Assembly: GCA_020441005.1 (NCBI GenBank)
Contig: JAGRNA010000012.1
Coordinates: 1 to 64,000 of the forward strand
Direction of reading: 5' to 3'
Length of the DNA stretch: 64,000 bases
Origin: Leptospiraceae bacterium
GTDB taxonomy: Bacteria; Spirochaetota; Leptospiria; Leptospirales; Leptonemataceae
Part shown: one piece after another, positions 17,660-41,492 of the stretch
Numbering within the stretch: position 1 is the stretch's first letter
How the letters are laid out: every line of letters starts with the position of its first letter
Position numbers and translations under genes: made by a program
The notes under the pieces: generated by a model
Told to the model about the DNA's origin: nothing
The model's database searches: none
What the model saw: only the letters and a program-made list of their open reading frames with translations

Positions 17660-18361
17660 TTATCGTCTGGAAAGGCGACCGGTTTGTGAGCGGCGCTCTT
17701 GCCAGACGAGAGCAAAGACCAGGCCGGCCAGGCTGATTGCCAAAAGCATGGCCAGGGCGAAAGCGATCGGACCGGTAAAGGCCAGGCAGTAATTATACAT
17801 GCCATGCGCAACAGACGCAATCAAGAGTCCGCCCGGCAGTATTTCCATACGGGCTTGTTCCATTAGCGTTGCTCCCAGCGCGTAAGCCCAGAACATGGCA
17901 TAGGCGATGTGACCCAGGTTGCCGCTCAGCAAACGTAGCCAGGTTCGCGACCAACCGTATTGCCACAAGTAAAGCAGATTTTCACCGCCGGCGAAACCCG
18001 CCGCGCAGGCAATCCCCAGTAACACAATATCGCTGCGTCGATCAAATTGACGGCTGCGCAGGGCGAAGGGAATTACGACCAGGAACTTGGCAAACTCCTC
18101 CACCGGACCGACGATTACGAAGAAGAGCAGCATATCTGACCATCGAATTGTGCGTAGGACCGGATCCGGGCCATTCGCTGCCAGGGGCAGCAAATTTTGT
18201 TGCAAAACATGACTGACAAATCCGGCCAGCGGACCGACCAAAAAGCCGCAGCCGAATACCAGCCAGCCAATTCTTTGCCAGCGTCCAAGCAGGGCCTGAA
18301 AAAAAATCAGCCAGCCAATGCTGACTAGCAAAAAAGCCAGTGCATATCCGCCTGGCTGCAT
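17660..18361 (-). CDS. PrsW-type intramembrane glutamic/metalloprotease
   Basis: 233 residues with about seven membrane helices. It has the family motifs of PrsW proteases: PVEEFAK (E88, E89), AGFAGGENLLY (E127), GHIAYAMFWAY (H151) and ASVAHGMYNY (H186). PrsW cleaves anti-sigma factors within the membrane in Bacillus; no anti-sigma gene is visible here. The ATG shares one base with the stop of the NIF3-like gene. It is the last gene of the five-gene minus-strand operon, so it may process a product of that operon. Confidence 0.8.
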   Translation of the reverse strand: MQPGGYALAFLLVSIGWLIFFQALLGRWQRIGWLVFGCGFLVGPLAGFVSHVLQQNLLPLAANGPDPVLRTIRWSDMLLFFVIVGPVEEFAKFLVVIPFALRSRQFDRRSDIVLLGIACAAGFAGGENLLYLWQYGWSRTWLRLLSGNLGHIAYAMFWAYALGATLMEQARMEILPGGLLIASVAHGMYNYCLAFTGPIAFALAMLLAISLAGLVFALVWQERRSQTGRLSRR

Positions 18362-18699
18362 CAGGTCTCATCCAGGGGCAGATCGTCCCACTGCAAACAG
18401 GGCCACACCTGCCAGGCGGGCTCTTCATAGGGATGCGCGTCTAACAGGGCAGCGACCGCGGCGCGTACATGGCCAGGCTGGCAAACCAGTTCCACTTTCC
18501 ATTCTGCTTCCTGATGAATCTGACCAATTTGTCCCACGGCTGGATTGGCTCCGCTCAGCGCCCTGAATTGACCCTGACCGCTCGTCTGCCATGCACAGGA
18601 ATCGTAACGCCCGATGCGGCCGGCCCCGGTGGCAAAGATCGCTTCCTTAACCGCCTCGGCTGCATCCAGCGGCACATAAAAACATAGCTTGTACACCAT
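18361..18699 (-). CDS. NIF3-like C-terminal domain protein (COG3323 type)
   Basis: 112 residues. The motifs YKLCFYVPLDAAEAVKEAIF, GAGRIGRYDSCAW, GQGQFRAL and AHPYEEPAW are those of the small ferredoxin-like domain also found inside NIF3/YqfO proteins. The molecular role of stand-alone versions is not established; a trimeric, CutA-like fold is the family expectation. Three bases separate it from the PLD gene, and it overlaps the prsW-like start. Confidence 0.8.
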   Translation of the reverse strand: MVYKLCFYVPLDAAEAVKEAIFATGAGRIGRYDSCAWQTSGQGQFRALSGANPAVGQIGQIHQEAEWKVELVCQPGHVRAAVAALLDAHPYEEPAWQVWPCLQWDDLPLDET

Positions 18700-18702
18700 G
18701 AG

Positions 18703-20577
18703 TCAATCCAGATGGAGACAGTTGATAAAGCGACCTTTTTCCTGTAAAATGTAGCGTTGTACATTATGCAAATTACTGGCTAACTCGCTACCGCTCTGCA
18801 GGCAGGCTAGTCCGCTGCTGCCATCTGCCAGTTCCAAAAAAACAAAGGCGTCGCCGCCGCTATATAGCCCGGGTGGCAGGGGATAGATGCCGGCACCGGT
18901 CTGTGTGAGGCTGGCCTGCGTCCAGCCAGTGCGACCCCATAGATGGATGGTTTTGACCGTCGGTGTAGTGGGTTCCAGCCAGAGCGTACCGGCCACAAAG
19001 GCGCTTGTGTCCGGATGGATAGCTTGCAACGGTTGCTGGAATAGAAGATCCAGTTGTTCGGCTGGAGTGCCAGCCATTCCAGGCGTAACTCTGTGCGGTA
19101 CTATTGCCCCGGGCAAATTGACCCAAATAGCCTGGCTCTGCTCGTTTGTTTGCAGCGTCGACTCTGCCCCCGGCGCCCACACCAGGGGATACTGCCTGCT
19201 TTGGACGAGTCCGGCGGAGCTGCTCTGCCAGTCGTCTGCATTCAGGCAACTCTGGCCCGATTCGTCCTGGAGGGCAGGGTCAAACTGATAATGATAGCTG
19301 AAAATCAGTGCCGGATAAACTGCAAACAGAGTGGCCCGGGGTGCACTATCTCCAATCGCTTTCGCTGTGGTGCAAATGCGGCCCGACTCGGTGGCGCCTT
19401 TTGGCAAGGGAACCATACTTGCCTGGCTGATCCAGTCCGGAAGCGGATCACGGGCCATCAGCAGGCTTTCCTGCCGCACGCGCCTGAATTCGGCTTCGAA
19501 AAGATCTGCAATGGCGGGATCGTCAAATTCAAAATAGATCTCCAGGTTGCGATCGCGCGCGCTGGCGCTCCAGTTCCAGGATCCGGTCCAGACGCGATTT
19601 TGATCAACAATCAGGGTTTTGTGATGGAGATGGCCCCCATGATACACCGGCATGCCTGCGGCGTCCAGTTCGGAGTAGACCCTGCGATTGCCTTCCAGAA
19701 ATATGCGGGCTGTACTCAAGCCCAGTGACGAGTTCAAAGCCAGGGCTTCGCTGCTCGTATCGATTTGATTATCATTATTGGCATCATCATAGATGCCCTC
19801 CAGGTCGATGTTGCCGGAGCGCGATCGAGCCAGCAGGGCCGCGCTGATACTTTGGTCGGTATGACTAAAGATCATGTAGTGCAAGCTGCGCTCGGCTTGC
19901 CATATGTCGCGCAGCAAGCGTTGCTGGATATAGCGTCCATCGCCGGGCGCTATCAAAATGCGCGCCCGCCAGCGCGGCAGGTACAACGCCTCGGTGGCCA
20001 GACCCTCGGCGGCCAGACTCTTCCGGATCAGTGCGGCTTGTTGGCGATCCACTTCTAAAAATATAAAAACATTATGATTATACTCCAGGCCGCTGCGCGT
20101 AAAATTTCCGGTGCCCGAGACAAGCAGGCGCTCATCAATCAGAATCACCTTGGCATGCTGTAATCCACTGCGATTGCGTATGGCAGGCTGGATGCCCAGG
20201 GAGCGCAGTGCGGTATAGGGATCTGCGGGTGTGCCGATCACTTCAATGCTCACACCGCGCTGTTGAGCACGCGCCAGCGCTGCGATCAGTTCCGGGTGCG
20301 AAAAACTATAGCACCAGATAGAAATCTGCTGCTTCGCGCCGTCGATCGCTTGCACCAGTTTCCTTTCTACTTCCAGGCGCAGTTCAGGAGCCACATACGC
20401 TTGCGGCCGCGTAAATAAAAAACGTTGCTCCAGTTCATTCCGGCGGGATAAATCCAGCAACGAGTCTGTGTCCTTTGTCTGGCAAGCTGCCATCAATAGC
20501 AGGCAAGGGCAGAGCATGGAATTAATGATCCAGGTAGCAGGCTTTGTCAACCAGCGGACGGGATGTTTACCACTCAC
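18703..20577 (-). CDS. Phospholipase D-like lipoprotein with unknown C-terminal domain
   Basis: 624 residues. A signal with K/R-rich front ends in LLLMAAC, lipidated at C32. Two HKD half-sites are complete (H141-K143-D148 and H318-K320-D325), so it should be an active PLD-superfamily phosphodiesterase acting on phospholipid or nucleic acid. An acidic DDANNDNQID stretch (about 264-273) looks like a calcium loop. The C-terminal ~220 residues are beta-rich and unrecognised. The start is the GTG at 20577, which overlaps the barrel gene by 11 bp and gives a full lipoprotein signal; the later ATG (20517) leaves no charged N-region. Confidence 0.8.
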   Translation of the reverse strand: MSGKHPVRWLTKPATWIINSMLCPCLLLMAACQTKDTDSLLDLSRRNELEQRFLFTRPQAYVAPELRLEVERKLVQAIDGAKQQISIWCYSFSHPELIAALARAQQRGVSIEVIGTPADPYTALRSLGIQPAIRNRSGLQHAKVILIDERLLVSGTGNFTRSGLEYNHNVFIFLEVDRQQAALIRKSLAAEGLATEALYLPRWRARILIAPGDGRYIQQRLLRDIWQAERSLHYMIFSHTDQSISAALLARSRSGNIDLEGIYDDANNDNQIDTSSEALALNSSLGLSTARIFLEGNRRVYSELDAAGMPVYHGGHLHHKTLIVDQNRVWTGSWNWSASARDRNLEIYFEFDDPAIADLFEAEFRRVRQESLLMARDPLPDWISQASMVPLPKGATESGRICTTAKAIGDSAPRATLFAVYPALIFSYHYQFDPALQDESGQSCLNADDWQSSSAGLVQSRQYPLVWAPGAESTLQTNEQSQAIWVNLPGAIVPHRVTPGMAGTPAEQLDLLFQQPLQAIHPDTSAFVAGTLWLEPTTPTVKTIHLWGRTGWTQASLTQTGAGIYPLPPGLYSGGDAFVFLELADGSSGLACLQSGSELASNLHNVQRYILQEKGRFINCLHLD

Positions 20578-22399
20578 TTTGCAGCTCCAGATAAAAGCGT
20601 TCGGCAACTAATTGACTATGGGTCGCACTTCTACCCGGCATTTGTTCTCGATCGCCGGGATTGGAATCGCTCAGAACAGTCTGATCCGGTCCCGAATAAT
20701 CGGCGCCCGGTTTACGATACAATCGCTGATAGCGCGCAAGGAATTTACTGCCCGTTCCGGTTTGCCAACCAAGGTCCAGGCCCACTTCGCGATACTGATG
20801 AGCGGCTGTATCTTTCTTTAGACGGCCAAAGGGCTGGGAACCGGGGTCCCGGTCCAGCAGAGCCAGAGGCTGGATGACGGTTGTTTGCAATCGCACCAGC
20901 CAGGGACGGCCTTCATATTGCAGACGGGATTGCCAGATGAAGCCGGGTCGACGTTGGCCGATCTCGGCGTGATTGCGATTGAGTCCCCGGCAGTCGGCAT
21001 CATTGTTTGCGCGCGTATCGGCATGACACAGCTCGTACCAGGGTTTGGAATCCAGCAGGCTGGCGGCCAGCGTGTCTGCCACCGGACTCGATCCCAGACC
21101 GACGTATCCGCTTAGTTCGTCTGCTGCTGCAGCGGAGCCACGCTGGTAATGACCGCTCTGGGGGATGAAAAAGGAATTTTGCCAGGACCAGACTCGATGC
21201 CAATGCAGACCCAGGCCAATTGACAATGCCTGACCCTCCACATGCCGTCGCCGCCGACCGTTTGTGTCTTTCAGGATGCTATAGTACTCGCCATCCACGC
21301 GATTCCAGTGCAACCAAAAGACCAAACCGGCTCCCTGATCGGGAATCTGGCGGTACCCCAGACCACCGCCGAGCCAGGCCAGCTTTTCATTTTGCCATTC
21401 CAGATTAGAGAGTACATCACTTGCGTTTTGCTCTACCTGATCATAAAACCATGCCGCATACCATGCTCCGGCGTGGAATGCATAACGCGTCGCCAATCCC
21501 AGACTACGATCGTTGCGCGCGTGTTGCAGCCAGTTGTCCCGGGCTGGAAAGGCTGCCAGGCTGTGATCTGCATTCAGATATTGAGCGTTGAGAGCCGGTC
21601 GATAGAGACTCAGCGTCAGGGAGCCGTAATCGGCATTGGCGCCGGTTAGATGGACCCCGCTCAGAAAAGAGCGCCGACCAAAGAGTTCGGTTAGCAAAGC
21701 ATCGCTTTCAGAATAGCGCCCCACCAACAGGCTGGCAATAGTATCGTTATCTAATGCACCTTCCATTCCAATGAACAGATTGTGTCCGGGCATGAATTGA
21801 AGATCCGATTGGCTGTTTGTGTTTTGCGTTTCGAGCGCCTCAGCGCTTGCCCCGGCGGAGTTGATCTGACGCGCCAGGTCGGTATTACTGCCGCCGACAT
21901 TATACATGAGGCGTCCATCCAGCTGATAAACGAACCAAAAGCGCTGCATTGCCCCATGCTCCTGTGGCTCGCCTGTAGTTGCCTGGTTTACAGTTTGCGT
22001 GTTGTCTGCCGCCTGGAAAGCGTCTGCCGGGGGCGCTGGATTCTCCTGGCCGGGCAAGCCCGGCAGGCAGACACGGCTGCGGCATAAATCGAAATCCAGC
22101 CCTAGCCAAAGCTGACTGGCGCTGTACACCTGGCGTTGCCAGGCGTTTTTTTGGTCATTCGTTGGGCTTGCGCCCGACAGCCTGGCTTCGCTGCGGTAGC
22201 GCCAGAAACTGGCTGCGGCAACTGGAGCCCAATGCCGGCGCTGCTCAAGGCCCTGGGCTGCGAGTGGTAGATTGCCGCATAGCAGCCAACCCATACTGCT
22301 TATAAGCAGTACAGCGTTTCGCATGGCGGGCGAGCCGCTCAGGTTGAACGGTGATCGCTCTTGTTTGTATTGTTGATGAATGAACCTTGTTATTGACAT
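20567..22399 (-). CDS. Outer-membrane beta-barrel protein, unknown
   Basis: 610 residues. A signal peptide is evident (MRNAVLLISS... ending PLAAQ) inside an N-terminal extension. The rest alternates hydrophobic and polar residues with many Tyr/Trp/Gly strands and ends in ...YLELQSEW, an aromatic last residue typical of outer-membrane barrels. The start at 22399 has a clear GAGG 7 nt upstream and overlaps the lipoprotein stop by 10 bp; ATG 22324 would give a plain 24-residue signal. The middle gene of the lipoprotein-barrel-PLD set; probably the pore or anchor of that machine, by inference. Confidence 0.75.
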   Translation of the reverse strand: MSITRFIHQQYKQERSPFNLSGSPAMRNAVLLISSMGWLLCGNLPLAAQGLEQRRHWAPVAAASFWRYRSEARLSGASPTNDQKNAWQRQVYSASQLWLGLDFDLCRSRVCLPGLPGQENPAPPADAFQAADNTQTVNQATTGEPQEHGAMQRFWFVYQLDGRLMYNVGGSNTDLARQINSAGASAEALETQNTNSQSDLQFMPGHNLFIGMEGALDNDTIASLLVGRYSESDALLTELFGRRSFLSGVHLTGANADYGSLTLSLYRPALNAQYLNADHSLAAFPARDNWLQHARNDRSLGLATRYAFHAGAWYAAWFYDQVEQNASDVLSNLEWQNEKLAWLGGGLGYRQIPDQGAGLVFWLHWNRVDGEYYSILKDTNGRRRRHVEGQALSIGLGLHWHRVWSWQNSFFIPQSGHYQRGSAAAADELSGYVGLGSSPVADTLAASLLDSKPWYELCHADTRANNDADCRGLNRNHAEIGQRRPGFIWQSRLQYEGRPWLVRLQTTVIQPLALLDRDPGSQPFGRLKKDTAAHQYREVGLDLGWQTGTGSKFLARYQRLYRKPGADYSGPDQTVLSDSNPGDREQMPGRSATHSQLVAERFYLELQSEW

Positions 22400-25300
22400 G
22401 CTAGTACCTCAAAGCTTGATTTGCGATCCAGTAGAGAGCTGGCGCGACGCTGTAAGCACTCGCCGCTAGCAGTGCTGATTTGCCAGGCGGATCCCAGACC
22501 GGGTAGACCCAGGCTGGCCAGCCGGATCCAGATCTGGTCGCTTTGTTGCATCAGATATAGACTCTCTTTGTCGCTGATGCCGTTGCCCAGGGTCTGACTG
22601 CTGGCCGCGGTCCAGACGAGCCGATCACGCAATTGTGGAACAAGGGGCAGGTGGGTGGTGTCCGGATCCAGCACCAGGGCGCATTCCCCTGCCCGTAGAA
22701 CACGGCTGCGGCCATTCAGTGCAGTGGCTGCCTGGGGTAGTTCACCAAAGCGCTCTAGCCAGGGTATCAGTTGATCAGAGTTGCTAGTGTCAAAGAGCCA
22801 CAAAATGGTATTCGGGTCCGGATTCCAGTCGCGAGCGCTACAGATCCGCAGCCATTCGTGCTGCCCCGTCGGTGGAACTGCCGCCACTGTTTCGAAATAC
22901 AGGCGCGGACTGGCGGCGTAGGCATCGCCGCTGAGCAGTTCGGTGTCGCTAATGTCAAGAATGCGCCAGAATTGTTGGCCGCTGATTGGCGCCGCCTGAA
23001 AAACCAGGCGTTCGCCTGGATGGAGCGAATGCCAGCGATCACTGACTAGTTGATCGAGACTATCACTTGTTTGTAAGCGCAGCTGAGCGGATGTAGTGGC
23101 AATCCACTGCCATTCCATCTGACGATGGTCGCCGCCCGTCTCAACCAGAGTGCCGTTGAAGACAGCCGGTCGACCGGGACTATATTGATTGCCTGTTGCG
23201 CAGGATTGAATGCCTGGATCAAAAGCAGAGGCCAGCCAGAGCTCGGGCAAATCCGGATGGCCAGCGTTGATCTTTTGCCAGCTTTGCCGGGGGCTACTGG
23301 CCGCCCCGGGGACAAGAACCTGTTCCTGGATTTGCGCATTTGCGTCCAGCAGTCGCAATTGAAATGCCTGGTCCGGCAATCGCAGCTCTGGCAGAGTCGC
23401 TTGATCAGGCCATTCTGCCGAACAAGGGGTCTTGTCTCGCGAGAGAAGAGCGTAACTGTTTTGTTCGGGCAGGGGCGGCAGATGAATTTGCTGCTGCATT
23501 TGATTGTTTTGCCAGATCTGGAGCGTCGCTCGAAAGTCCGCACCGACCGCAGTACTGCCGGAGTGCAATTCAATGAATTCACTGGCCGGCCAGGAGCGAT
23601 GATTATCATCCAGTGCGCCGCGTGAAAAAACCTCGGAAAGCTCGAACTTGAACAGGTCGCTGGCGGCCTCTTCCCTCCCAGGACAGCCGGGCGTCATCCG
23701 ATTGCGATCTGCCAGGTCCGGACGCAGTCCGCATGATTGGCCCACTGTATAATACCACCCCTTGTCCTGGCGGGACAGCGAGTGCAGGGGTCCATCGGCG
23801 CCCCAGCTTGCAATCCAGTATTCCTTTTGGGTCGGCTGATATAAAATGCGTTCGTTAGCACGCCATAAATCAGCAAGTATGAATCCCTGGGTCGAATTTA
23901 AATAACGAATAACGGAGTTTTCTATAAATACTCGCCCGGGCTCTTTTACAAAATAGGCCCGGTCGCTAGTCAAAATCAGATGCTCGTCACGTCTCAGGTT
24001 TGTTTGTCCCAGTTCCATCCGGCGCCAGTCGGCCAGCAGAACCAGGTTTTGAGGGTTGCAATCCCGTTTGACCAAAAGATCGATAAAACTGCCATCTCGA
24101 TCGGTTGTGCCATCTGTCAGGCGCAAGCCGTTCAAATTGAGTTCCTGGATGCGCAGATCATCTATGGTGCACAGGTTTTGTCCGGATGCATAAGCGAGCA
24201 AGGGCTGGATCGTGTCCGGGATGCCCGCGCGGCTGCAAGTACCGCGCCAGGATACCAGGCACAATCCGTTGGGTGTAAAGACCTGTTCATTGCGATCCCA
24301 TTGCCAGGCGCGACGATCCGCATGCGTGCCAGGATCAAGCAGTTGACGATCAAAACGCAGCGGAAATTGCAACTGGCGCAAAGTCGGCCCCGAACCGAGC
24401 GGCGTTGTTGGCGGCCAATTTGTTTCGTCCAGGATATAGCTGGAATCGGCGGTCAAGTACACCTGCAGGGAAACGCGCGCGTCGCTCGCATCGCTTAGTT
24501 CAACCGTAAAGAGGCCGGCCGGGCCTGGATTGCGGATTTCCAGGAAGCGGCTACTCGCGCTGGCAGCGGCAAAGCTGGCCATGTGGAGTTGGCTCGCATC
24601 GGCCTTGCTTTGTTGCGCTTGTTCCAGGCGAGTCTTTAATGATCGCAGTGCAACGAGGGCCTGCGCGCGGATGACCGGATCCAGAAACTCGATGACCAGG
24701 GCTTCATCATCACGTTCCCAGTCCGGATAGATCAGCGTTAGAGAATCGGTCGTCAAGAGCAGTCCAAACTGCGTTTGGGCAAAGCGTCGTCCGATGCGCA
24801 AGGCCGGGTCGGTGCCGTCCAAAAGATTACGCGGCCGATAGGCGGCGCTAAATTCGAGCGGCCCGGTTGGCAGTGACTCCAGCAATGTCTGGCGCGTATT
24901 CTGCCATCCGTCCACCGCCACCAGCACCGTGGCCTGTTTGGGTAGCCAGGTACGCCAGCGGACATAGTTGATCCGCAAGTCGGGACTCTGATAGGCCGGG
25001 TCAGCGGTTTCGCGGACGAGGCCAGCCTGGATCAGCTTGCGCAAGATCAAAGCCTCAGGACCCAGGGACAAGGCGCAGTAGCGTAAGCGCAGACCGTTCT
25101 CGCGCCAGAACCACTCGGCTGGTTGACTAAAGATACACCAGCCCTGATCCGCGCTCCAGCGCAGCTCCGGCCGGCCGGCGTTATCCGGGGGACTGGCAAA
25201 GGCGGCCATTTCCTGGCGCAGGCGTTGACCGCTTAAAACAAAGTCCTGGTACTGTAGATCCAGCTGCGCTGGATGGCCCAGCGTGGGTCCCAGAGGAAGC

Positions 25301-25437
25301 TGCGGATCCTCAGCAGACCCACACGCTCCCAGGAAGGCTGTAACTACGATCGCCAGGCAGCTCAGGATCCCGGGGGCGGTTTTCAACTTGCTTTGCCGTC
25401 GTTCTATGGAAGACTGGTATGAGCAGTTTGCATTCAT
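22390..25437 (-). CDS. Giant lipoprotein with repeated lamin-tail-like domains
   Basis: 1015 residues. The signal ends in TAFLGAC with lipidated C39. The body is beta-rich and contains several segments with lamin-tail (LTD) character: SRFLEIRNPGPAG (around 315), SEFIELHSGST (around 620), then LRLPDQAFQLRLLDANAQI (around 690) and HEWLRICSARDW (around 850). Bacterial LTDs are known as extracellular adaptor domains attached to membrane-associated hydrolases, which fits the PLD gene two places downstream. ATG 25437 was chosen for the signal peptide. It is first in the operon and faces the GT4 gene across 131 bp. Confidence 0.75.
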   Translation of the reverse strand: MNANCSYQSSIERRQSKLKTAPGILSCLAIVVTAFLGACGSAEDPQLPLGPTLGHPAQLDLQYQDFVLSGQRLRQEMAAFASPPDNAGRPELRWSADQGWCIFSQPAEWFWRENGLRLRYCALSLGPEALILRKLIQAGLVRETADPAYQSPDLRINYVRWRTWLPKQATVLVAVDGWQNTRQTLLESLPTGPLEFSAAYRPRNLLDGTDPALRIGRRFAQTQFGLLLTTDSLTLIYPDWERDDEALVIEFLDPVIRAQALVALRSLKTRLEQAQQSKADASQLHMASFAAASASSRFLEIRNPGPAGLFTVELSDASDARVSLQVYLTADSSYILDETNWPPTTPLGSGPTLRQLQFPLRFDRQLLDPGTHADRRAWQWDRNEQVFTPNGLCLVSWRGTCSRAGIPDTIQPLLAYASGQNLCTIDDLRIQELNLNGLRLTDGTTDRDGSFIDLLVKRDCNPQNLVLLADWRRMELGQTNLRRDEHLILTSDRAYFVKEPGRVFIENSVIRYLNSTQGFILADLWRANERILYQPTQKEYWIASWGADGPLHSLSRQDKGWYYTVGQSCGLRPDLADRNRMTPGCPGREEAASDLFKFELSEVFSRGALDDNHRSWPASEFIELHSGSTAVGADFRATLQIWQNNQMQQQIHLPPLPEQNSYALLSRDKTPCSAEWPDQATLPELRLPDQAFQLRLLDANAQIQEQVLVPGAASSPRQSWQKINAGHPDLPELWLASAFDPGIQSCATGNQYSPGRPAVFNGTLVETGGDHRQMEWQWIATTSAQLRLQTSDSLDQLVSDRWHSLHPGERLVFQAAPISGQQFWRILDISDTELLSGDAYAASPRLYFETVAAVPPTGQHEWLRICSARDWNPDPNTILWLFDTSNSDQLIPWLERFGELPQAATALNGRSRVLRAGECALVLDPDTTHLPLVPQLRDRLVWTAASSQTLGNGISDKESLYLMQQSDQIWIRLASLGLPGLGSAWQISTASGECLQRRASSLLDRKSSFEVLACQ

Positions 25438-25568
25438 ACCTTGAAAGGTCGCCGGGTTCCATTTTGTTGCGCGTTCGCGGTTTTTTTTCGCTGTCATACG
25501 GAAAAAAAATGGCAAGCCTGGACAAGTTTCGGTCGGTTCTTCAGGTTGGTGCTTCTGTAGCGCTGCAC

Positions 25569-26714
25569 ATGAAACGGGTCTTGCTTGTTACCGATTATTT
25601 CCGGCCAGACCCGGGCGGTCTGGAGGCGCTTTTCACGGGTGTGGCCCGCGCATGGCAGGCTGGTGCTCTGGAAGTAATCGCCAACCGGGTCTCTCGCCAG
25701 AGCCGCAGCACACCGTCCGACCTGGCTGCTTTTGACAAAGGCGAGGATTACAAGATCATCCGCCCTGATTATAGTCAGTCCTGGCAAGAGTCCCTAAAGT
25801 TCAAGGCCCGGATGCAAGAATTGTTAGAACAGCGTCTGACCCTGTTTGGACCGGAACACGTTTTATTTGGGGATTTACACCGCGCCACCCGGGTCTCTGT
25901 TCCGGTTTTGAAGACTCATCAAATTCCTTACTCCATCTTTTTAAACGGCAATGATCTGAAAAACCGGCTTGGCTTTCTGCACCGTGCCAGTCGCCGGATT
26001 GTGATGGAGGCTGAAAACGTCTTTACCTTGTCGCGCTACCTTGCGCGTGAAGCGCGCGGTTATGGTATTGCAGAGGATCGCATTACAGTACTGCCTCCTT
26101 TTTTTGAGTCTCGTTGGCCCCGACGCAGCACTAACCGCCTGCCGCAATTTTTGCAGAAAAGAATCAATAAAAAAATATTATTACTTTCATTGGGGCCTTT
26201 TGTGCCGCGTAAGGGCCAGGACATTCTGATCGAATCCTTCGCCCGTTTACAGGACTTGCATCATGAAACGCATCTTCTATTAGCCGGCTCCGGACCGGAG
26301 TTCCCTTTTTTACAGGAGTTGATCCGTTTACATCATCTGGACGAGCATGTCAGTCTGACCGGTTTTCTCGATGATGCCACTCTGGCAGGCGTCTGGAAAC
26401 GGGCCGACATCTATGTGCAACCCGGTCGGGATCGGGAGGATGATGTGGAAAGTCTGGGCATGGTTTTTCTGGAAGCTGCCTGGTTCGGCGTGCCGATGCT
26501 GGCTGGTCGCGTGGGCGGAGTCGACGAAATTGTGCGCCATGGCGTTTCCGGCTTTGTGATAGAACCCGGCAATCGCGATGATTTGAGCGACAAACTGCGT
26601 CAAATGATTGTATCCGATCAGCTGCGCTTGCGCTTTGGAAAAAATGCCCGTGATATAGCGCGGCGTGATCTGGATCCGGATCGTATTTGCGCCTTTATCC
26701 ATACCCGCTTGTAG
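25569..26714 (+). CDS. GT4-family glycosyltransferase
   Basis: 381 residues, GT-B fold. The N-terminal Rossmann half begins MKRVLLVTDYFRPDPGGLE. The C-terminal half contains LLSLGPFVPRKGQDILIESFARL, whose family role is nucleotide-sugar binding, and the E-x7-E region (ESLGMVFLEAAWFGVP), followed by GGVDEIVRHGVSGF. It transfers a sugar from a nucleotide donor in the cytoplasm to a lipid or glycan acceptor. The start at 25569 matches the family; upstream in-frame codons overlap the divergent promoter. Confidence 0.88.
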   Translation: MKRVLLVTDYFRPDPGGLEALFTGVARAWQAGALEVIANRVSRQSRSTPSDLAAFDKGEDYKIIRPDYSQSWQESLKFKARMQELLEQRLTLFGPEHVLFGDLHRATRVSVPVLKTHQIPYSIFLNGNDLKNRLGFLHRASRRIVMEAENVFTLSRYLAREARGYGIAEDRITVLPPFFESRWPRRSTNRLPQFLQKRINKKILLLSLGPFVPRKGQDILIESFARLQDLHHETHLLLAGSGPEFPFLQELIRLHHLDEHVSLTGFLDDATLAGVWKRADIYVQPGRDREDDVESLGMVFLEAAWFGVPMLAGRVGGVDEIVRHGVSGFVIEPGNRDDLSDKLRQMIVSDQLRLRFGKNARDIARRDLDPDRICAFIHTRL

Positions 26715-40046: not shown

Positions 40047-41492
40047 TTAGTATTTCGTGCGCAAAAAGATGAAATACAGAATCATCAGGACGGTCAGGAT
40101 GTATTTTAGCCAATGAGCCTCTTTGTAGCGTCCGCTCACCAGCTTGGTGATCGGGTAGGTGATAAACCCCAGCGCGATCCCGTCAGCGATACTGTAAGAA
40201 AGAGGAATTCCCAGAATAACAACAAAGGCCGGTAGAAATTCGCTGAAATCGCCCAGTTCCAGGGCGCTGATATTTTTGAGCATCATACCGCCCACAATGA
40301 CCAGCGCCGGCGCTGTGATCGGCGGATAGCTGCCCACCATGATAATCAGCGGGCTTAAAAACAGGGCCCCCAAAAAACACAGGGCAATGACCACCGCCGT
40401 CAGGCCGGTTCGTCCGCCTTGCTCTACTCCGGCGGCGCTTTCGATATAGGCTGTCACCGTGCTGGTTCCAAAAAGGGCTCCGATCACCGTGCCAAATGCA
40501 TCTGCTAAAAAGGCGCGGTTGGCGCGCGGCAGTTGGCCGTTTTTGAGAAAGCCCCCGGCTTGACCAACGGCGAGTAGCGTTCCCATAGTATCGAAGATAT
40601 CGACGAACAGAAACATGATGATAAACGGTACCATACTGCTGCTCAGGGCCGACCACCAATCGACGGCCAGGAAAGTCGGCGCGACCGAGGGCGGCCAGGA
40701 AAGGATGTGGCTGCTCATGCTAAAGCGCTGCAACAGCATGGACTCCTGCACTACTTTACTGTTGACATAACTTGCGGGCAGATAGGGGATTAGCTCGTCC
40801 AGTCCAATAGTCAGGGCGGTCGCGAAGAGCATGCCGATCAAAATAGCGCCTTTGCGGTTGTGTACAATCAAGGCCGAGCTGAGAATCAGACCGGCAAAAA
40901 AAACCAGAATATCCGGGGAGGCAAAGCTGGAATTAAGTCTGACCCCGGTGCCTGGATCGGCCTCGATCAGGCCGGCGTTTTGAAATCCGATGAAAGCAAT
41001 GAACAGGCCAATGCCGACCGCAATCGCGTGCTTCAGATTGGGGCTGATGGCATCCATTAATAGCTGGCGCAGTCCGCTCACCGAAACCAGCACAAACAGG
41101 ACACCCGCGATCAGAATCACACCCAGGGCTACATTCCAGGCGTTTTGAAATCCGGCGGCCAGGGCGCCGGGGATAACGGTGATCACGAAGAAGAAGTTGG
41201 CCCCCATGCCGGGTGCCAGAGCGATCGGATAGCGGGCCATCAAGGCCATGATCAGGGTCGCTACGGCGGCTGAAAGGCAGGTGGCCGTCATCACCGAGCC
41301 GAAGTCCATCCCGGTCGGCTGGTTGGTGAATTGACCCGATAATACGGCGGGTTGCACCACAATAATATAAGCCATGGTCAGAAAGGTGGTGATTCCGGCG
41401 ATGATTTCGACTTTGATACTGGAACCCGCCGCGCTGATGCCAAAGTAGCGGTCTAGCCAGTTCTGTTTGCTGGTTGGTTGGTTTGAGAGCAT
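40047..41492 (-). CDS. NCS2-family purine permease (AzgA/PbuG-like)
   Basis: 481 residues, about 12-14 membrane segments. The opening DRYFGISAAGSSIKVEIIAGITTFLTMAYI is, in its first half, the hallmark of the AzgA/PbuG hypoxanthine-guanine permeases (split here by family convention, not by a gap). GMGANFFF, NRKGAILIGML, FVDIFDTMGTL and GTSTVTAYIESAAGVEQGGRTG follow, the last being the second substrate helix. It imports purines with protons. Single gene, divergent from the cyclase. Confidence 0.9.
   Translation of the reverse strand: MLSNQPTSKQNWLDRYFGISAAGSSIKVEIIAGITTFLTMAYIIVVQPAVLSGQFTNQPTGMDFGSVMTATCLSAAVATLIMALMARYPIALAPGMGANFFFVITVIPGALAAGFQNAWNVALGVILIAGVLFVLVSVSGLRQLLMDAISPNLKHAIAVGIGLFIAFIGFQNAGLIEADPGTGVRLNSSFASPDILVFFAGLILSSALIVHNRKGAILIGMLFATALTIGLDELIPYLPASYVNSKVVQESMLLQRFSMSSHILSWPPSVAPTFLAVDWWSALSSSMVPFIIMFLFVDIFDTMGTLLAVGQAGGFLKNGQLPRANRAFLADAFGTVIGALFGTSTVTAYIESAAGVEQGGRTGLTAVVIALCFLGALFLSPLIIMVGSYPPITAPALVIVGGMMLKNISALELGDFSEFLPAFVVILGIPLSYSIADGIALGFITYPITKLVSGRYKEAHWLKYILTVLMILYFIFLRTKY

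Follow-up and report, generated by a model that had tools for sequence, protein, structure and literature searches.

What is the working unit in a run of five closely packed genes, and what might that unit do at the surface of the cell that carries it? The question is raised by positions 17660-25437 of a 64,000-nucleotide stretch of DNA from a Leptospiraceae bacterium (GCA_020441005.1, contig JAGRNA010000012.1, 1-64,000), which as a whole we call the window. A preliminary description had read the five minus-strand genes as one envelope operon, and a listing of open reading frames (ORFs) confirms the coordinates and the spacing on which that reading drew:

22390-25437, minus strand: lipoprotein with lamin-tail domains (LTDs), about 1015 aa; ATG start, with an alternative TTG at 25515
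20567-22399, minus strand: predicted outer-membrane beta-barrel, LA_2168-related; overlaps the lipoprotein gene by 10 bp
18703-20577, minus strand: phospholipase D (PLD)-superfamily lipoprotein with two HKD motifs, comparable to LA_2170; GTG start (ATG 20517 as alternative), overlaps the barrel gene by 11 bp
18361-18699, minus strand: YqfO/NIF3 insert-like protein of 112 aa, apparently a local passenger; 3 bp from the PLD gene
17660-18361, minus strand: PrsW-superfamily intramembrane protease-like protein, apparently a local passenger; overlaps the NIF3-like gene by 1 bp

We argue, from the distribution of these genes among relatives, that the conserved unit is a real three-gene surface cassette found across the order, and not a five-gene one.

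Where, then, does the unit end? Thirty genomes of the order were searched, and 26 loci besides the window were examined together with their flanks. A PLD-superfamily match turned up in all 30 (only a weak or partial one in G002, G003 and G020), and in every one of the 27 loci, as far as the contigs reach, the LTD lipoprotein, a barrel-type protein and the PLD protein follow one another in one order on one strand; all three genes are visible in 24 loci, and contig ends cut the other three. The genes usually overlap or stand a few bases apart, with frequent 4-bp stop/start overlaps. Where middle proteins have diverged beyond the reach of pairwise search, leave-group-out profiles connect them as homologues across genera (for genus g10 the homology is seen only by profile-profile comparison, at 98 %, E 1.9e-13). 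The full set is restricted to the order: among 247 genomes of the phylum, the lipoprotein at near full length occurs in this order only, and other members of the class match it just around the LTD stretch. Because the three genes stay together across the order, they probably work as one cell-surface machine. The idea that a lipoprotein adaptor, an outer-membrane barrel and a PLD enzyme form one surface unit is thus supported by order-wide synteny, to which a second cassette in the same genome, described below, adds its weight.

The same check was run on the two remaining genes, which relatives do not keep. Of NIF3/YqfO proteins, the NIF3-like protein resembles the insert domain alone (2gx8 residues 163-260 by phmmer, 2.8e-18) and lacks the NIF3 core; in the other 29 genomes of the order nothing matches it. 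The PrsW-like protein belongs to its superfamily (PF13367, 1.2e-27) and is assigned no further than that, scoring 62.6 bits where the NCBIfam PrsW equivalog asks for 225; its closest relatives (40-46 %) are scattered on contigs other than that of the PLD locus. The window's genus is represented in the set by this one genome, and the two genes look like local passengers of it, outside the cassette. One may still imagine a five-gene operon with PrsW and the NIF3-like protein as regulators or processing factors of the surface complex, since all five genes are closely spaced and, from the spacing alone, one transcript spanning them is plausible in this genome. In relatives, however, different genes follow the PLD gene, and on conservation we have rejected PrsW as the processing or control step and the NIF3-like protein as its partner; as a conserved system this proposal is largely refuted and highly improbable. 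Elsewhere in the window, a 158-aa ORF on the minus strand (40183-40659) matches the NIF3-insert-like protein weakly (7e-4) and has no Pfam match.

What sort of proteins does the three-gene cassette encode? The first is a LIC11755-like lipoprotein in which we recognise the following domains:

23317-23646, minus strand: lamin-tail domain, lipoprotein residues 598-707
23938-24168, minus strand: probable second lamin-tail domain, residues ~424-500

The lamin-tail label did not come from Pfam, where the window protein matches neither the LTD family (PF00932) nor any other; it is borne out by its orthologues, 7 of 22 of which match PF00932, and by comparison of profiles and structures. A profile built from the LTDs of the second cassette and of PLD+LTD fusions, compared by hhalign with the lipoprotein family alignment (A1), finds the first domain at 96.3 %, E 1.6e-9, and the second as an alternative match (E 6.2e-5, 64.7 %) in a better-modelled beta region. 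Foldseek, run on a poor model, brings up the Ig domains of lamin B1 and lamin A/C with probability near 1 and a best E of 6e-3, no match falling below 0.001, and the family profile has no relative among PDB sequences. The nearest named family, NCBIfam NF047473 (lipo_LIC11755), is matched by 16 of the 22 orthologues, by the window protein with E 1.9e-6 and 26.5 bits; its 300-bit cut-off is reached in no genome searched. The lipobox cysteine, Cys39 (LGA-C), is invariant across the 22 orthologues, and with such a cysteine after a hydrophobic stretch both this protein and the PLD protein fit the predicted pattern of bacterial lipoproteins processed by signal peptidase II.

The second protein has a signal peptide and beta hairpins, and the top 50 Foldseek matches to its model (a low-confidence one) are almost all outer-membrane porins. 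It has no Pfam match, no solved sequence relative when its profile is run against PDB sequences, and nothing in common with the LTD profile by hhalign. NF047476, the LA_2168 family, matches it at E 1.2e-5 and 24.4 bits, below a 250-bit cut-off that the barrel genes of 7 syntenic relatives do pass. A C-terminal aromatic residue is present in the window protein and in 12 of 27 sequences, against a background of 14 %.

Another reading is that the barrel and the LTD lipoprotein bring lipoproteins or polysaccharide out to the cell surface, with the PLD protein as cargo or as a trimmer of phosphodiester-linked glycan, and with a glycosyltransferase as partner. There is a candidate for this partner just upstream:

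25569-26714, plus strand: divergent group-1 glycosyltransferase (PF00534, 3.4e-37); start placed by orthologue comparison, the longest ORF beginning at 25419

Most loci of f1, the window's own family, have a divergent gene of ~370-410 aa ahead of the cassette, and most likewise keep the glycosyltransferase as its neighbour. It is not beside the cassette in the f2 loci, however, and the structural matches of the barrel are to porins and not to Slam or LptD, so that envelope assembly seems to us quite unlikely as the cassette's business.

The third protein is the presumed enzyme. It has two PLDc_2 domains in Pfam (PF13091, 1.2e-35), and both HKD motifs are intact (residues numbered from ATG 20517; invariant columns of alignment A3):

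20104-20157, minus strand: first HKD motif, HxK(x4)D...GTGN, residues 121-138
19573-19626, minus strand: second HKD motif, HxK(x4)D...GSxN, residues 298-315

The lipobox cysteine and the HxKx4D, GTGN and GSxN residues are invariant in 27 PLD orthologues, and by these sequence features the protein is a member of the HKD superfamily. The closest solved structures to its profile are NucT and MitoPLD/Zucchini, followed by Nuc. These best solved relatives have the HKD motifs in common with it, but the cassette protein carries two of them in one lipid-anchored chain and adds a C-terminal region of ~200 aa that contains cysteines. (That this region might be a hidden LTD was rejected by comparison with the LTD profile in hhalign.) The best NCBIfam profiles are DrmC and NucT, both below cut-off; because the PLD lipobox is invariant, we set aside a cytoplasmic defence nuclease, which the DrmC and DpdK profiles (also below cut-off) might have suggested.

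Has this combination of parts arisen more than once? On another contig of the same genome (C143, 30000-47000; L058), two LTD lipoproteins, a barrel-like protein and a PLD+LTD lipoprotein stand in a row, in the same order as in the window (so too at L079). This larger cassette, with further loci at L059 and L074-L079, is strongly conserved in six relatives (G001, G004, G006, G019, G021 and G027), where LTD lipoprotein or lipoproteins, barrel and PLD+LTD protein are kept together; PLD+LTD fusions in a single chain are found across the class. It differs from the window cassette in the fusion of PLD to LTD, in having one more LTD lipoprotein, whose N-terminal part is PLD-like, and in its barrel, which shows no detectable homology to the window's by profile-profile comparison. 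Three histories would therefore fit: this composition came together on two occasions, one cassette had its barrel exchanged, or a shared origin of the barrels is now too distant to be detected.

We can now ask what the cassette is for. The reading to which we lean, at a little under even confidence, is an outer-membrane phosphodiesterase, more likely a nuclease than a lipase, held by the LTD lipoprotein and with a pore as its partner, its likeliest use being the scavenging or processing of nucleic acid from the environment. The three proteins would sit together in the outer membrane, where the PLD enzyme would act outside the cytoplasm on a polymer with phosphodiester bonds, for which nucleic acid is the likeliest candidate, while the LTD lipoprotein would hold the enzyme, its substrate or both, and the barrel would admit the products or anchor the enzyme. 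In its favour are the nucleases among the nearest solved relatives of the PLD protein and an UshA-like gene (5'-nucleotidase fold), which lies downstream of PLD in most same-family loci. There is also precedent for coupling an LTD to a secreted phosphodiesterase: the extracellular nuclease ExeM needs its LTD for full activity in vitro (PMC6085458), and DNA-degradation loci in Izemoplasmatales include an LTD protein (PMC8289736). ExeM differs in its build: it is a single polypeptide that also has EEP and OB-like domains, whereas the cassette puts LTD and PLD on two lipoproteins whose genes flank that of the barrel.

Several observations weigh against this reading. The LTD of ExeM is dispensable in vivo (PMC6085458). 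The structure models, built from 6-7 sequences, have low confidence (pLDDT 38 for the lipoprotein, 40 for the barrel). The UshA-like protein seems to be without the usual metal ligands, and this genome's own copy of its gene is on another contig (C183), away from the cassette. NucT-type nucleases have a described positively charged groove, whereas most members of the cassette's PLD family have a domain whose charge is about neutral or negative (net -4 in the window), a strongly basic domain being confined to g12 sequences, by a charge that is that of the whole domain and not of the groove. MitoPLD relatives, moreover, also carry annotation as cardiolipin hydrolases.

The last two points speak for a lipid-acting enzyme in the same three-protein complex, a phospholipase, phosphatidyl-transfer enzyme or cardiolipin hydrolase that would remodel the cell's own outer membrane or foreign ones. 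Membership of the PLD superfamily, with MitoPLD among the nearest relatives, and weak matches to cardiolipin synthase profiles are of a piece with it, as is LA_2170 of L. interrogans, annotated "lipoprotein with phospholipase D domain" and raised on exposure to macrophages (log2 3.04 in RNA and 2.07 in protein; PMC10100824). LA_2170 is likened to the cassette enzyme by annotation and not by sequence, as a PLD-domain lipoprotein whose locus number is two from that of LA_2168, an adjacency taken from the locus numbers only. Against a lipid substrate, nuclease-type profiles score far better (2.8e-19 and 3.1e-18) than cardiolipin synthase profiles (1.5e-8), and we hold the lipid-acting enzyme to be unlikely. 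With NucT, MitoPLD and Nuc as the nearest solved relatives, a nuclease is favoured over a lipase; since most members are not basic, it is no more than favoured.

If a nuclease is what the surface complex holds, it might do something other than feed the cell. NucT has been implicated in transformation of H. pylori (PMC5714352), and one could picture a surface enzyme that nicks DNA and a barrel that lets the DNA in, as an aid to natural transformation. A porin-like barrel is not known as a DNA channel, though, and the genes flanking the cassette in the loci examined include none recognised as a competence gene, which leaves DNA uptake very unlikely. A wider generalisation of the scavenging nuclease is that Leptospirales possess a class of surface machines, two separately built cassettes to a genome, in which LTD lipoproteins and a barrel together serve as a platform, keeping a PLD nuclease in place and importing its products, so that nucleic acid would be used at the outer membrane by the logic of Sus-type glycan systems; for the present we would call this rather improbable.

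To our knowledge, an enzyme has been assigned to few of the conserved surface systems of Leptospirales. This cassette recurs in almost all genomes of the order that could be searched, and its Leptospira counterparts include one protein raised in macrophage-exposed cells and another proposed as a vaccine candidate. The role of LTDs in bacteria is not settled either, and the cassette would make both matters accessible to experiment. What was reported as a five-gene system is here corrected to three genes, and is joined by a further cassette built of the same kinds of parts. The claim that no such system had been described holds for the open-access literature in PubMed Central, where we found no account of the cassette (one in a subscription journal could be missed); it needs the amendment that two of its proteins fall in or near named Leptospira families. 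In PMC5406399 LIC11755 figures as a vaccine candidate and as a lipoprotein predicted for the outer membrane; PMC2387172 counts LA2168 among the predicted outer-membrane proteins. The likeness of the cassette to NF047473 and NF047476 lies in the matches of orthologous lipoproteins and barrels given above; the window proteins themselves fall well short of the two cut-offs, and the families carry no function. A link of either family to a PLD gene was not described in the open-access papers searched. Scanning named genomes with the single PLD protein found nothing; with four close PLD sequences the scan gave six Leptospiraceae loci, none of them in a named Leptospira species.

In several relatives, the cassette is followed by a block of CoaE-like, SPOR-domain, 215-aa and polyphosphate kinase-like genes (L045:3133-7514 and f1 equivalents; the CoaE-like and polyphosphate kinase-like labels are by sequence), a block that does not come after the cassette in the window. 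The UshA-like gene lies at L045:7559-8743 and at equivalent positions beside the cassette, with this genome's copy at G000:C183 (L080:8605-9732).

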